Shown here: piece after piece, positions 2,896-58,072 of the stretch | How positions within the stretch are numbered: position 1 is the stretch's first letter | How the letters are laid out: every line of letters begins with the position of its first letter | Position numbers and translations under genes: made by a program | The notes under the pieces: model-generated | The model's database searches: none | Seen by the model: only the letters and a program-made list of their open reading frames with translations | What the model was told of the DNA's origin: nothing | Assembly (NCBI RefSeq): GCF_020215665.1 | Contig: NZ_CP084061.1 | Location: 2,264,001-2,328,000 of the forward strand | Direction of reading: 5' to 3' | Length of the DNA stretch: 64,000 bases | Source: Blautia parvula | GTDB taxonomy: Bacteria; Bacillota; Clostridia; Lachnospirales; Lachnospiraceae

Positions 2896-3829
2896 GTATA
2901 CACCTCACATATCCTCCCCTGATCTCGCTCATGGGAATATCATTTTCACACTCTTTTGTCTTATGGGGACATCTTGGAGAAAAGAGACATCCCTTTGGCA
3001 GATACCTGGCATATGGCTGAAATCCCGGAATGGGCCTGAAGCCGTTCTGGGGAAGTGCCTGCCACAGTGCTTTGGAGTATGGATGGCGCAGCTTTCCCGC
3101 ACCCTCCAGAAAATCTTCCGCCTTTGCCATCTCTACTGTGGTTCCGGCATAAAATACGGCGATCCGGTCAGCAATATGAAAGGCCAGGTCAATGTCATGG
3201 GTGATGAGCACCACTGCCTTTCCCTCGTCCGCAAGCTCGCGGAATACTTTAAGCGCTTCCAGAGCCATTTCCAGATCCAGGCCCGGTGTGGGTTCGTCCG
3301 CGATGATCAGGGAGGCGTCGCTTATGACAGCCGTTGACACCAGAACCCTGCGGGCCATGCCGCCTGAAAGCTGGAAGGGATAATATTTTTCTATTTTTTC
3401 ATCCAGATGGAATCTCTTAAAAATCTCCTTTTTGGAAATTTCCGCCTCTTTTCCCCGGTCGCCTCCCGTCACCTGTTTTCCCACTTTCATAAGGGGGTCC
3501 AGATAGGCGATGGACTGGGGCACCAGGGCGATCCGGGTACCTCTGAAAGCCTCCTTTTTCTTCTGGTCAAGGATCTCGCCCTTGTATGTGATACTGCCTG
3601 TGAGCCTGGCATTCTCCGGCAGGATTCCCACGACAGCATGGGCCAGAAGGCTTTTCCCGGAGCCGCTGGAGCCTGCGATCGCCACAATCTCCCCCGGTTT
3701 TACATCCAGGCTCAGGTTGGATATTACCTTCAGATCATATTGTTCCAGCCCCTTGTCATACATGTGGAAGGATACGGACAGGTCTTCCACTTTCAGCAGG
3801 GGCGCATTTTCCATTCGTTCTTTTTTCAT
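2885..3829 (-). CDS. ABC importer ATPase, DppD/NikD-type
   Basis: 314 residues. Walker A AGSSGSGKS is near residue 54, LSGGMARRV follows, then Walker B SLIIADEPTPGLD. The C-terminal oligopeptide/dipeptide extension holds the cysteine run CLFSPRCPHKTKEC, as in DppD/OppD, where it can bind an Fe-S cluster. Ribosome site AGGAG 8 bases before the ATG. First of two cytoplasmic ATPases paired with the permeases at 3839 and 4698. Confidence 0.94.
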   Translation of the reverse strand: MKKERMENAPLLKVEDLSVSFHMYDKGLEQYDLKVISNLSLDVKPGEIVAIAGSSGSGKSLLAHAVVGILPENARLTGSITYKGEILDQKKKEAFRGTRIALVPQSIAYLDPLMKVGKQVTGGDRGKEAEISKKEIFKRFHLDEKIEKYYPFQLSGGMARRVLVSTAVISDASLIIADEPTPGLDLEMALEALKVFRELADEGKAVVLITHDIDLAFHIADRIAVFYAGTTVEMAKAEDFLEGAGKLRHPYSKALWQALPQNGFRPIPGFQPYARYLPKGCLFSPRCPHKTKECENDIPMSEIRGGYVRCIHAT

Positions 3830-3838
3830 GTTCTACTC

Positions 3839-4705
3839 CTATTCATGTGCGCTGTACGGGTCTAAGATCTTCTTCATATTTTCACCCAGACGGTCAAAAA
3901 GCAGTACAATGACCACAAGCATAAGGCCCGGGAAAAATGCCAGCCACCACATGCCGGATGACAGGTATTTCATGGATTCCGACAGGATGATACCAATGGC
4001 GGGCTGCTCCGGCGAGAGGCCGAATCCCAAGAAGGTAAGGCCGGACTCATGCATAATGGCATGGGGAAAGAGAAGGATCAGACCGATGATAAACTGCGGC
4101 ACCATATGGGGCAGAATGTGATGTACGGTGATCCACCAGCTGGAATGTCCCAGCTTCTTTGAAACGCCTATATACTGCTGAGAACCAATCTGGAGCACCT
4201 CACTTCTTATAATACGGGCAAGCCCTGTCCAGTGGGTGACCGCCACGCCAATCAGTACCCCTTTTAACCCTTTTCCGCAGGCAAAGGAGATGAGGATCAG
4301 AAGCACAGTGTGGGGGATTCCCATAACCAGGTCTATGACCCAGTTGATAAAATGGTCCAGCCAGGAACGCCCCGTCGCTGCCGCCACACCCACGAACAGA
4401 GCGATCACGGCACTTACGCTTGAGGCGATCATACCCACGGAAATGCTGACCGAAAGCCCTTTTACCGTGCGCACCAGCATATCCCTTCCCAAAAGGTCTG
4501 TGCCGAAAGGATGCTCCAGGGAAGGTTTCAGCGCTTTTTTTGAAAAATCCGCCTGAATCAGGTCATCACTCAATAAGGCCCCCGACAGATATACGCCCAG
4601 GATCACGAAAAAGATCAGGGCGGCAAATAGTATGGTCTTTGTTCTCCGGTTCACGAAAATCCTTCGTCTCTGTGCACCGGATACCGCTGCAGTCATATCA
4701 CTCAT
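3839..4705 (-). CDS. ABC importer permease, DppC/NikC-type
   Basis: 288-residue inner-membrane permease. One N-terminal membrane segment (ILFAALIFFVILGVYLSGAL) is followed by the DppC landmark HPFGTDLLGRDMLVR and a five-segment BPD_transp_1 domain. The EAA loop region (near SEVLQIGSQQYIGVSKKLG) contacts the ATPase. It overlaps the upstream permease gene by 8 bases. Confidence 0.94.
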   Translation of the reverse strand: MSDMTAAVSGAQRRRIFVNRRTKTILFAALIFFVILGVYLSGALLSDDLIQADFSKKALKPSLEHPFGTDLLGRDMLVRTVKGLSVSISVGMIASSVSAVIALFVGVAAATGRSWLDHFINWVIDLVMGIPHTVLLILISFACGKGLKGVLIGVAVTHWTGLARIIRSEVLQIGSQQYIGVSKKLGHSSWWITVHHILPHMVPQFIIGLILLFPHAIMHESGLTFLGFGLSPEQPAIGIILSESMKYLSSGMWWLAFFPGLMLVVIVLLFDRLGENMKKILDPYSAHE

Positions 4706-23572: not shown

Positions 23573-23646
23573 TAGCGAGAGGGGGACTTGAACCCTCGAC
23601 ACTACGGGTATGAACCGTATGCTCTAGCCAGCTGAGCTATCTCGCC
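23573..23646 (-). tRNA. tRNA-Met (CAT anticodon), copy 2 of the transcript
   Basis: 74-nt cloverleaf: acceptor GGCGAGA/TCTCGCT, anticodon stem TACGG/CCGTA around TTCATAC, discriminator A, CCA not encoded. Paired position 1-72 and the stem sequence point to an elongator and not the initiator. A tRNA-Ile with modified CAT is not excluded. The T-stem (GAGGG/CCCCC) has one A-C mismatch, also present in the other copy. Confidence 0.9.
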
Positions 23647-23678
23647 ATCTGTTATCCTTCTGCTTTTTGGCAAAAGAA

Positions 23679-23751
23679 TGGGACCTATAGGGCTCGAACC
23701 TATGACCCTCTGCTTGTAAGGCAGATGCTCTCCCAGCTGAGCTAAGATCCC
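23679..23751 (-). tRNA. tRNA-Val (TAC anticodon), copy 2
   Basis: 73-nt cloverleaf: acceptor GGGATCT/AGGTCCC, anticodon stem TCTGC/GCAGA around CTTACAA, T arm ATAGG-TTCGAGC-CCTAT. CCA not encoded. Identical to 23895-23967. Confidence 0.93.
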
Positions 23752-23789
23752 AAGACTTTTATTTGATTGTATGCTGCTTGTACAGCAAG

Positions 23790-23863
23790 TAGCGAGAGGG
23801 GGACTTGAACCCTCGACACTACGGGTATGAACCGTATGCTCTAGCCAGCTGAGCTATCTCGCC
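23790..23863 (-). tRNA. tRNA-Met (CAT anticodon), copy 1
   Basis: Identical to the tRNA at 23573-23646, including the A-C mismatch in the T stem. Part of a tandemly duplicated Met-Val unit. Confidence 0.9.
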
Positions 23864-23894
23864 ATCTGTTATCCTTCTGCTTTTGGCAAAAGAA

Positions 23895-23967
23895 TGGGAC
23901 CTATAGGGCTCGAACCTATGACCCTCTGCTTGTAAGGCAGATGCTCTCCCAGCTGAGCTAAGATCCC
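23895..23967 (-). tRNA. tRNA-Val (TAC anticodon), copy 1
   Basis: Identical to 23679-23751. First tRNA after the promoter at 24008-24037. Confidence 0.93.
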
Positions 23968-30878: not shown

Positions 30879-31132
30879 GTTGGCTCCTTTCTGCCTTTTT
30901 CTTCGGCACACCAAAACCTGCATTGCGGTTTCTTATGAATTGTGTTATTCAGCACCAGCTAGGAATTATACTCCTCTCCGGCCGCTTTCTTACTTATCAT
31001 AACATGGATCACTTCATTAATAAAATTAATATATCTTATATTTTTTATAATTACTACTAATATGTAAACTCGTTTTTTAATTTATTTTTTTCATTTTATA
31101 ATTCCAGAAAATTGTTCCCGCAGCCAAGAACA

Positions 31133-31334
31133 GGAAGAGTACGGGAGGGGGTCTGGGGAGCCATATGCCTGCGGGCGATGTCTAGTGGAGCGCCGCGGAG
31201 ATCCACCTGCCCCAGTTACTTAATGAAGAGGCCACTGCCGATGAATTTAGTAACTGGGAGCAGGTTAGCTCCGTGGCAGCGAAACGCTTCGCCCGCAGGC
31301 ATATGGCTCCCCAGACCCCCTCCCGTACTCTTCC
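31133..31334 (+). repeat. Long-hairpin element, copy 1 (structured RNA candidate)
   Basis: Arms at 31133-31178 and 31289-31334 are perfectly complementary over 46 bp. Inside, a GATCCA/TTAGC internal loop precedes stem CCTGC/GCAGG, then CAGTTACT/AGTAACTG, then GAAGAG/CGATGA around a GGC-CACT-GCC tip. The core matches copies 2 (53587) and 3 (57833); the outer arms do not. It lies between divergent purL and an MFS gene. The plus strand is given because most unpaired-versus-wobble differences favour G-U there. Confidence 0.8.
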
Positions 31335-31375
31335 GTCCGCATGCCCCCCATCTTCCGGTTTTCTCACAAAACCAG

Positions 31376-45000: not shown

Positions 45001-45071
45001 CTGTACATCCCCTCTCCCGTTTCCGCCGCGCTTACCCGTCCGCCAACCTGTTGTCTCCACAAACAAAAAAA

Positions 45072-53461: not shown

Positions 53462-53586
53462 AATAATCTCCTATCCAAACACATCTCTCTCAACCTACCC
53501 TATCTCTTTCTAACTCAAAATTCAAAATATCCATAACAAAGGCTACCGTTTACTTTACCCACAAAACCGTGGGATACCAGCCACCA

Positions 53587-53804
53587 GGGAAGCAGGCGGT
53601 GAGCGGAGGGCAGCCGGGGCAGAGGGTATCAGGCAGGCGGTGTTTCGCGGAGCGGGCGGAAGATCCACCTGCCCCAGACACTTAGCGAAGAGCCCTAAGG
53701 CGATGAGCTTAGTGACTGGGAGCAGGTTAGCTTCCACCCAGCGGAGTGCTCCGCCTGCCTGATACCCTCTGCCCCGGCTGCCCTCCGCTCACCGCCTGTT
53801 TCCC
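53587..53804 (+). repeat. Long-hairpin element, copy 2 (structured RNA candidate)
   Basis: Arms at 53587-53640 and 53751-53804 pair over 54 bp with one G-T wobble. Core: AGATCCACCTGCCCCAG, CACTTAGCGAAGAG, CCCTAAGG, CGATGAGCTTAGTG, CTGGGAGCAGGTTAGC. It begins 24 bases past the xth stop and fills most of the 53462-53827 gap. The arms share no sequence with copies 1 or 3. Confidence 0.82.
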
Positions 53805-53827
53805 GTCCGCCCTATCCCCCCCTTATT

Positions 53828-57619: not shown

Positions 57620-57832
57620 ATTTCACCCACCCAGTTTCATAATCCATTTTTCACAATCTATCCTTCATAATACCACAAATCCCATCATAAATCTCCCCTT
57701 TCCAAACATTTTTCCCACCTTATCCTCCCTATTCTTTCCGGGCTTTCTTTTCCAGACTTTCCTCCCAAAACCGTTCCTTTACCCTCAAACGCCATCCGCA
57801 GCTACCTCTTTCCGTCCCCTTTAAAAAAACAG

Positions 57833-58012
57833 CCGGACCTGGCCGCAGGCTTCCCTGTACGGACGTTTAAGAGCGGTAGAGAATCTTACAAGATCCATGC
57901 GTTAGCAAGCACTTAGTGAAGAGCCCTAAGGCGATGAACTTAGTGCGGCTTACGCATTAGCTTGGAAGTTCTCTGCTCTCGCCCGTACAGGGAAGCCTGT
58001 GGTCAGGTCCGG
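57833..58012 (+). repeat. Long-hairpin element, copy 3 (structured RNA candidate)
   Basis: Outer arms 57833-57862 and 57983-58012 pair over 30 bp with two G-T wobbles; more pairing follows (AGAGAA/TTCTCT, CAAG/CTTG). Core: AGATCCATGCGTTAGCAAG, CACTTAGTGAAGAG, CCCTAAGG, CGATGAACTTAGTG, TACGCATTAGC. The inner stem TGCGT/ACGCA replaces CCTGC/GCAGG of copies 1 and 2, a compensated change. Lies in the 57620-58102 gap; the rest of that gap is pyrimidine-rich with nothing recognised. Confidence 0.8.
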
Positions 58013-58072
58013 CGTCCGGAATAAGCCTTATAGACTACAGTCCTACACTGATTTTTCAAAAAATCTCACAAA

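Follow-up and report, generated by a model that had tools for sequence, protein, structure and literature searches.

A REP-like family of giant intergenic hairpins in Lachnospiraceae whose arms are probably kept complementary by templated copying

The closest described relatives of the hairpins reported here are short interspersed repeats of the REP type. CGTC-tagged REPs, found mainly in alpha-Proteobacteria, have stems of 8 to 9 bp and loops of 4 to 5 nt, are mostly intergenic, often lie past gene ends, and have no dedicated transposase (Di Nocera et al. 2013; PMC3733652); that paper nowhere mentions Clostridi-, Firmicutes, or Blautia. The hairpins of the window (the whole 64-kb stretch of DNA that was analyzed) resemble these REPs in having an unpaired CGTC at one end and, at the opposite end, a short CCA-like tail, in being intergenic and situated past gene ends, in lacking a dedicated transposase, and in forming dimers, which mostly have the tags outside. 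Here, all 16 of the hairpin pairs less than 1.5 kb apart are divergent with CGTCC outside, several of these pairs being mutually orthologous. Unlike the short stem and loop given for CGTC-tagged REPs, the present elements have outer stems of about 25 to 45 bp or more and a structured core. On one strand, the stem has CAG on its 5' side and CGTC on its 3' side. In dRS3-type repeats, the order of the CGTC and CAG sides relative to the stem is reversed. The hairpins are not filed as CGTC-tagged REPs because their stem and loop sizes fail the definition and the tag polarity appears to be reversed. They are also comparable to GTAG REPs, BIMEs, and REPINs, which are interspersed hairpins in inverted pairs with conserved feet (PMC3733652). 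In contrast to the GTAG REPs and REPINs with RAYT outlined there, the present hairpins have no GTAG foot, the feet being CAG and CGTCC, and two of the three same-genus carriers have no Y1 match; the hairpin is also about five times longer than the 20 to 40 bp given for that group.

How perfect stems persist despite single mutations that break them is a long-standing question. Template switching has been proposed to keep RNA hairpin stems perfect (Monttinen and Loytynoja 2022; PMC8794818), a proposal whose strongest evidence for maintenance is labeled circumstantial in the authors' own discussion of it. The present hairpins share with that proposal arm-to-arm copying during replication as the means of maintenance, and they differ from the rRNA and microRNA cases presented there in offering long orthologous stems at many loci, in which the mirrored point changes are mostly isolated, include transversions, and occur at about the flank rate. 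Escherichia coli quasipalindromes (PMC7202029) are likewise imperfect inverted repeats that mutate by template switching; the quasipalindrome is a laboratory mutational hotspot, whereas the hairpins form a natural repeat family. Each of three genomes carries between 13 and 32 long stems, many of them at orthologous loci, so that arm-to-arm copying can be measured naturally, in a system that is apparently non-coding. In integron attC sites, the outer core sites are conserved and the middle is variable. Here, in contrast, the apex is conserved and the arms are variable. The family joins the REP-like repeats and extends REP-like anatomy to Lachnospiraceae.

The window corresponds to G000:C1:2264001-2328000 in a genome (G000) of 6.25 Mb on a single contig. 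A first-pass annotation made from the sequence alone had reported three hairpins, and these are found where it placed them (Table 1), with folds far beyond those of dinucleotide shuffles (z values of -17.1, -18.2, and -13.8 for copies 1, 2, and 3, with 0 of 200 shuffles folding as well as the native sequence for each). The common core that it described is real, as the covariance model scores in Table 1 attest. This model has 90 positions and was built from 19 copies; besides the three copies, a search of the window with it returned only an opposite-strand echo of copy 1 (26.2 bits). The 46-bp mismatch-free run noted for copy 1 holds if the G of CAG is taken to pair with the first C of CGTCC; inside the arms, the perfect run is 45 bp, counted by eye. 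What had been read as a GAAGAG/CGATGA loop is more like a helix, with conserved tandem G-A steps around a freely varying pair. That the arms have no sequence in common is correct for the three window arms compared with each other but not across subfamilies and orthologues, whose arms are homologous and diverge by paired changes. The CAG and CGTCC feet, the many further copies, and the divergent pairs had been missed. Elsewhere in the window (23573 to 23967), there are four minus-strand tRNA genes with Rfam scores of 68.5 and 59.8 bits, each score being shared by two genes, in alternation.

Table 1. Hairpin copies, their conserved cores, and a deletion scar, in window coordinates.
Feature	Start	End	Strand	Parts	Basis
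Copy 1, whole element	31131	31338	+	CAG foot 31131-31133; hairpin 31134-31333; CGTCC foot 31334-31338	Sequence, fold, feet
Copy 1, conserved core (model R1)	31189	31278	+	GATCCA/TTAGC internal loop; T-T mismatch; two tandem G-A steps	cmsearch, 105.7 bits
Copy 2, whole element	53585	53808	+	CAG foot 53585-53587; hairpin 53588-53803; CGTCC foot 53804-53808	Sequence, fold, feet
Copy 2, conserved core	53651	53740	+		cmsearch, 104.6 bits
Copy 3, whole element (second subfamily)	57830	58017	+	CAG foot 57830-57832; hairpin 57833-58012; CGTCC foot 58013-58017	Sequence, fold, feet
Copy 3, conserved core	57881	57970	+		cmsearch, 88.7 bits
Scar of a deleted copy	45013	45044	+	Right-arm end and CGTCC foot only	Read by eye

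The window hairpins belong to a real multicopy, REP-like family of giant hairpins. A covariance-model search of Lachnospiraceae genomes, which had been asked for earlier, recovered many further copies, with 28 matches in G000 and 32 and 13 in the congeners G008 and G009, respectively. Model matches were obtained in 3 of 20 genomes of the genus, in 4 of 397 genomes of the family (the window's own included), and in 1 of 391 genomes of the class (the window's own), the strict filters of the family and class surveys losing weak matches. Among public species genomes, the exact core pattern occurred in 28 stretches, with titles naming Lachnospiraceae, Clostridia, or Candidatus Pelethocola; it gave no matches among viral contigs. 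The earlier claim that pairing is kept while sequence is not is supported by both-sided changes in 17 of the 27 core pairs among the first 19 copies and by the copies in relatives. The family also remains without a known counterpart in Rfam, while further copies and covariation do exist: a search of the window and 20 loci gave no hairpin match above the gathering threshold, and the sub-threshold matches at copy 1 up to E = 10 were two MIR models and IRES_c-myc only. No earlier description of the hairpin family was found in the open-access literature searched, and a literature search on "skipping-rope" RNA gave no description usable for comparison.

Each element opens with CAG and its outer arm, after which the middle loop region leads through GATCCA, a stem, ACTTA, and the two tandem G-A steps around the variable pair to a short tip; the 3' half mirrors the 5' half with TTAGT and TTAGC, followed by the second arm and CGTCC. 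The variable pair is A-T in 66, G-C in 31, and C-G in 12 of 115 distinct core rows, a set that omits 5 of 127 model matches as opposite-strand echoes. Among the 73 copies in G000, G008, and G009, both exact feet are present in 66. CGTC follows the stem within the searched range in 69 (CGTCC in 68), and CAG occupies the opposite foot in 67 of the 69 for which CGTC was required by the script; arm and flank counts omit the 4 copies that lack a CGTC foot and 1 that lacks a left arm. The element spans 173 to 218 nt in 68 copies, and the 69th, which has lost its left arm, spans 254 nt. Outer stems are 25 to 45 bp long, a range in which counting stopped at 45, so longer stems are possible. G makes up 48% of the left arm's first 35 nt. 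The + strand flanks are G-poor, with 12 to 19% G and 23 to 44% C in all four ORF contexts, and other intergenic stretches of the same regions have 18 to 23% G. As a sign of a possible basal extension stem, 8 of 68 left flanks contain CTGYGG and 29 contain CCGC, more in both cases than in shuffles. Tandem repeats occur in the left flank of 28 and the right flank of 11 of 68 copies, and orthologue flanks are identical at 918 of 2,400 bases on the left and 1,736 of 2,400 on the right, an asymmetry that may partly reflect the nearer gene on the right. The right foot, sometimes with the right-arm end, is tandemly repeated downstream at G008:C1:1855326, L176, L183, and G008:C1:1878482.

The evolution of the arms was followed in orthologous copies among G000, G008, and G009, which were identified from their flanks. 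In 25 orthologous comparisons, 833 arm pairs are unchanged and 129 have undergone a double change from one Watson-Crick pair to another (72 transitions and 57 transversions); a further 5 double changes are not Watson-Crick, and 29 changes are one-sided (17 G-T, 3 A-C, and 9 other). The flanks in these comparisons differ at 1,142 of 9,128 sites (614 transitions and 528 transversions). Five orthologue comparisons stand outside the 25, of which two were counted later, with 12 double and 2 single arm changes, and three had broken arms or no foot. A strict set was limited to one comparison per locus (16 loci), of which the 12 with arm divergence up to 25% were kept; the 4 loci above 25% are present in the 25-comparison count. 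The 465 arm pairs of the strict set contain 39 double Watson-Crick changes, against about 1.3 expected if the arms were independent, and 8 single changes (6 G-T, 1 A-C, and 1 other). Of these double changes, 35 are isolated pairs, and the ratio of transitions to transversions among all 39 (21:18) is the same as in the flanks (Fisher p = 1). Changed arm pairs number 47 of 465 (10.1%), compared with 530 of 4,655 flank sites of the same 12 loci (11.4%), the flank rate serving as a proxy for the neutral rate in flanks that contain coding ends and were counted in their alignable parts only.

Arm-to-arm copying is favored because the mirrored point changes include transversions, occur at about the flank rate, and are accompanied by just 2 non-wobble one-sided changes. 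Selection for pairing alone should, by reasoning, make double steps rare and should not give such changes. The orthologue counts therefore lend good support to what appears to be templated maintenance of one arm by the other. In the relative G175, 6 similar copies could be set against each other in 15 comparisons, which are not independent; these show 31 double Watson-Crick changes, 1 other double change, and 33 one-sided changes. The arms there change less (65 of 905) than adjacent sequence (304 of 2,391), and in one copy both arms have lost a matching 5 bp. One-sided mutations therefore arise, correction is not instant, and mirroring in this genome is incomplete.

The core at orthologous loci is conserved well beyond the flanks. 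Unpaired core columns were chosen for their conservation in 36 rows from other genera; across 16 orthologous pairs of the window's genus, just 1 of the 288 sites in these columns had changed (p = 2e-15 versus flanks), and all core columns, unselected, changed at 60 of 1,216 (4.9%, p = 2e-17 versus flanks). An earlier count of motif columns, 2 of 224, is circular because the columns were picked from the same rows; the apical loop in that count changed at 10 of 64 sites. Copies may exchange sequence with one another, and part of the core conservation could be due to homogenization.

The hairpins are probably gene-less, REP/BIME-like interspersed intergenic elements of about 175 to 220 nt whose arms are kept complementary mainly by templated copying. 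A strand would fold back during replication or repair and one arm would template the other, by quasipalindrome correction or template switching. Since arm would be copied from arm, arm sequence could drift without constraint and the hairpin would still remain nearly perfect. A factor may recognize the folded + strand through the core motifs and feet, with the arms acting as a sequence-neutral clamp. The hairpins provide a natural test case for the survival of perfect hairpins under mutation, and they carry a warning that covariation by itself is no proof of a functional RNA stem.

A possible alternative, though one to which we give less credence, is that the hairpins are miniature-transposon remnants once moved by a Y1 (RAYT/IS200-type) or other single-stranded-DNA-hairpin transposase, their conservation reflecting recent spread. 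Such spread would suit the patchy occurrence in the genus and family surveys, the fixed feet and divergent pairs, which resemble REP dimers (PMC3733652), and the similar copies with shared flanks at several places in G175, which point to probable amplification. It would also suit window copy 3 and a G000 hairpin at 3024028, neither of which has a trace in G008; the site of the latter has no visible trace in G009 either, as read by eye, and insertion and complete loss fit all of these traceless sites equally. Most hairpin-less sites speak against it. The site orthologous to the scar at 45013 to 45044 has a full hairpin in G008 and a remnant consisting of the left foot and right half in G009. 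At the copy 1 site in G009, the left arm and core have been lost between two CAGG repeats, and at the copy 3 site in the same genome the outer left arm and right-arm end are apparently kept. Four of the five hairpin-less sites at three loci thus retain hairpin debris and read as deletion scars, and no clean insertion into a virgin site was seen among the sites read. The fold-back copying of arms proposed in the first-pass annotation consequently survives as the mirroring of point mutations and not as the making of new arms at insertion. A site keeping only the right arm had at first raised the idea that insertion creates the arms out of target sequence; this idea was rejected where G009 keeps the left foot and right arm or the left arm and right end, since these are internal deletions.

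The search for a mobilizing partner gave little support to the transposon reading. Y1 transposase (PF01797) was not found in G008 or G009, which carry 32 and 13 hairpin copies, and G000 has a single fragment with a stop; matches occur in G069, G175, and G318. A hairpin is present at one (L151) of 11 PF01797 loci, about 1.3 kb away, so one of the four Y1 matches in G069 can be cited in favor of a RAYT/Y1 partner, which is otherwise unsupported and was set aside. The ORFs near the copies formed 20 clusters with at least 4 members, and no recurrent partner protein was seen among them beyond common ones; we take these clusters, judged from their sequences, to be common protein families or hairpin-derived pseudo-ORFs. 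Conservation of the core among orthologous, vertically held copies also argues against transposon remnants.

A structured non-coding RNA family, with arms paired by ordinary compensatory selection and no templated copying, is a rather unlikely explanation. The both-sided changes in 17 of 27 core pairs are what such a family would show; the tandem G-A steps, T-T mismatch, and asymmetric internal loop are RNA-like motifs, and the G-poor, C-rich flanks would remain unstructured. G-U-compatible mismatches also outnumber A-C on the + strand: G-T to A-C counts are 24:5 in the arms and 63:17 in the core (115 distinct rows), with copies and orthologues being related and the counts therefore not independent. 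Where both neighboring ORFs read the other strand, the counts are 17:3 in the arms and 15:4 in the core; arm counts in the remaining contexts, written as the orientations of the two ORFs, are 5:2 for '++', 6:0 for '-+', and 2:0 for '+-', from few cases. Because the G-T excess persists opposite genes, the folded + strand seems to be the functional form, independently of neighboring transcription. This excess fits RNA and single-stranded DNA alike. Against an RNA family stand the paired changes at about the flank rate, the flank-like transversions, and the scarcity of non-wobble intermediates, as compensatory evolution through unfit intermediates should, on population-genetic reasoning, be much slower and transition-biased. 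Strong promoter matches directed toward the hairpin were found in 27 of 68 left flanks versus 21.6 in shuffles, which is no enrichment before the 5' foot (32 versus 24.0 in the opposite direction). The left flank is poorly conserved, and orientation relative to neighboring ORFs is mixed in 69 copies ('--' 32, '-+' 16, '++' 15, and '+-' 6). These three features, the missing promoter enrichment, unstable left flank, and mixed orientation, give a slight tilt to DNA, making folded single-stranded DNA (or a cruciform) somewhat likelier than a transcript. No replication-strand bias of the copies was seen by eye with the origin assumed at coordinate 1.

That the hairpins are terminators or 3' stabilizing hairpins of adjacent genes is improbable as an account of the family. 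With neighboring ORFs called mechanically at a length of at least 130 aa, the right foot lies close to an ORF and the left flank is longer. In 38 copies the right ORF ends toward the hairpin, and in 18 of these the distance from the ORF end to the right foot is 13 to 39 bp; REPs too are known from positions past gene ends (PMC3733652). Read in the opposite direction, CTGG or CTGT and then a short T run come after the hairpin (left flank consensus, AAAACCAG), so a terminator-like role is possible for copies next to gene ends. In 31 of 69 copies, however, an ORF starts rather than ends at the right side. The T run is short and 3 to 4 nt off the stem, the mismatch asymmetry favors the strand opposite to those genes, and the conserved internal motifs would be unnecessary for termination. 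In two different genera, a hairpin is located in what seems to be the same ribosomal-operon gap (L137 in G069 and L080 in G000), between what are presumably a methionine-aminopeptidase-like ORF and an S13-like ORF.

Templated copying, the reading preferred here, could also be cast in a stronger and decidedly speculative form, in which the hairpins would be self-repairing palindromes: an active, strand-specific process would renew arm from arm, and the foot-side tandem repeats would be by-products of synthesis. For example, an enzyme might bind the core and nick at the CAG or CGTCC foot, and the 3' end would then copy the opposite arm; with one arm renewed from the other, the identity of the arm sequence would be irrelevant by design. 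Gene conversion between loci, as a source of the double changes in place of copying from arm to arm, is very improbable, for although the cores look swapped in two orthologous pairs, which differ at 13 of 71 core sites each while their arms are nearly identical, 35 of the 39 double changes in the low-divergence arms each affect one pair by itself and do not form blocks, and arms at other loci look by eye too different to donate single matching pairs.

Several hairpin loci contain additional elements. Another palindromic element, distinct from the hairpins, about 387 nt long, and predicted to have a branched tip, occupies 803 to 1189 of L138 in G175, near the hairpin; it is multicopy, being present also at L136, L142, L143, L146, and L147, and blastn among the extracted loci found it at G175 loci only. 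As read by eye, one hairpin is split by a palindromic insert of about 160 bp with GAGTGT/ACACTC-like ends, and a similar sequence is present at a different G009 hairpin locus (L113, about 4040 to 4200, in G008 and L128, about 3530 to 3660, in G009). At L103 in G008, a 276-aa ORF lies between divergent hairpins at 3954(-) and 5263(+); by eye, part of its sequence is left in G009 and none is seen in G000. At L097 (4042 to 5208) in G008, a 282-aa ORF stands between the hairpin and the apparent collapsed remnant of a second hairpin farther on, and G000 has a single hairpin there, as read by eye.
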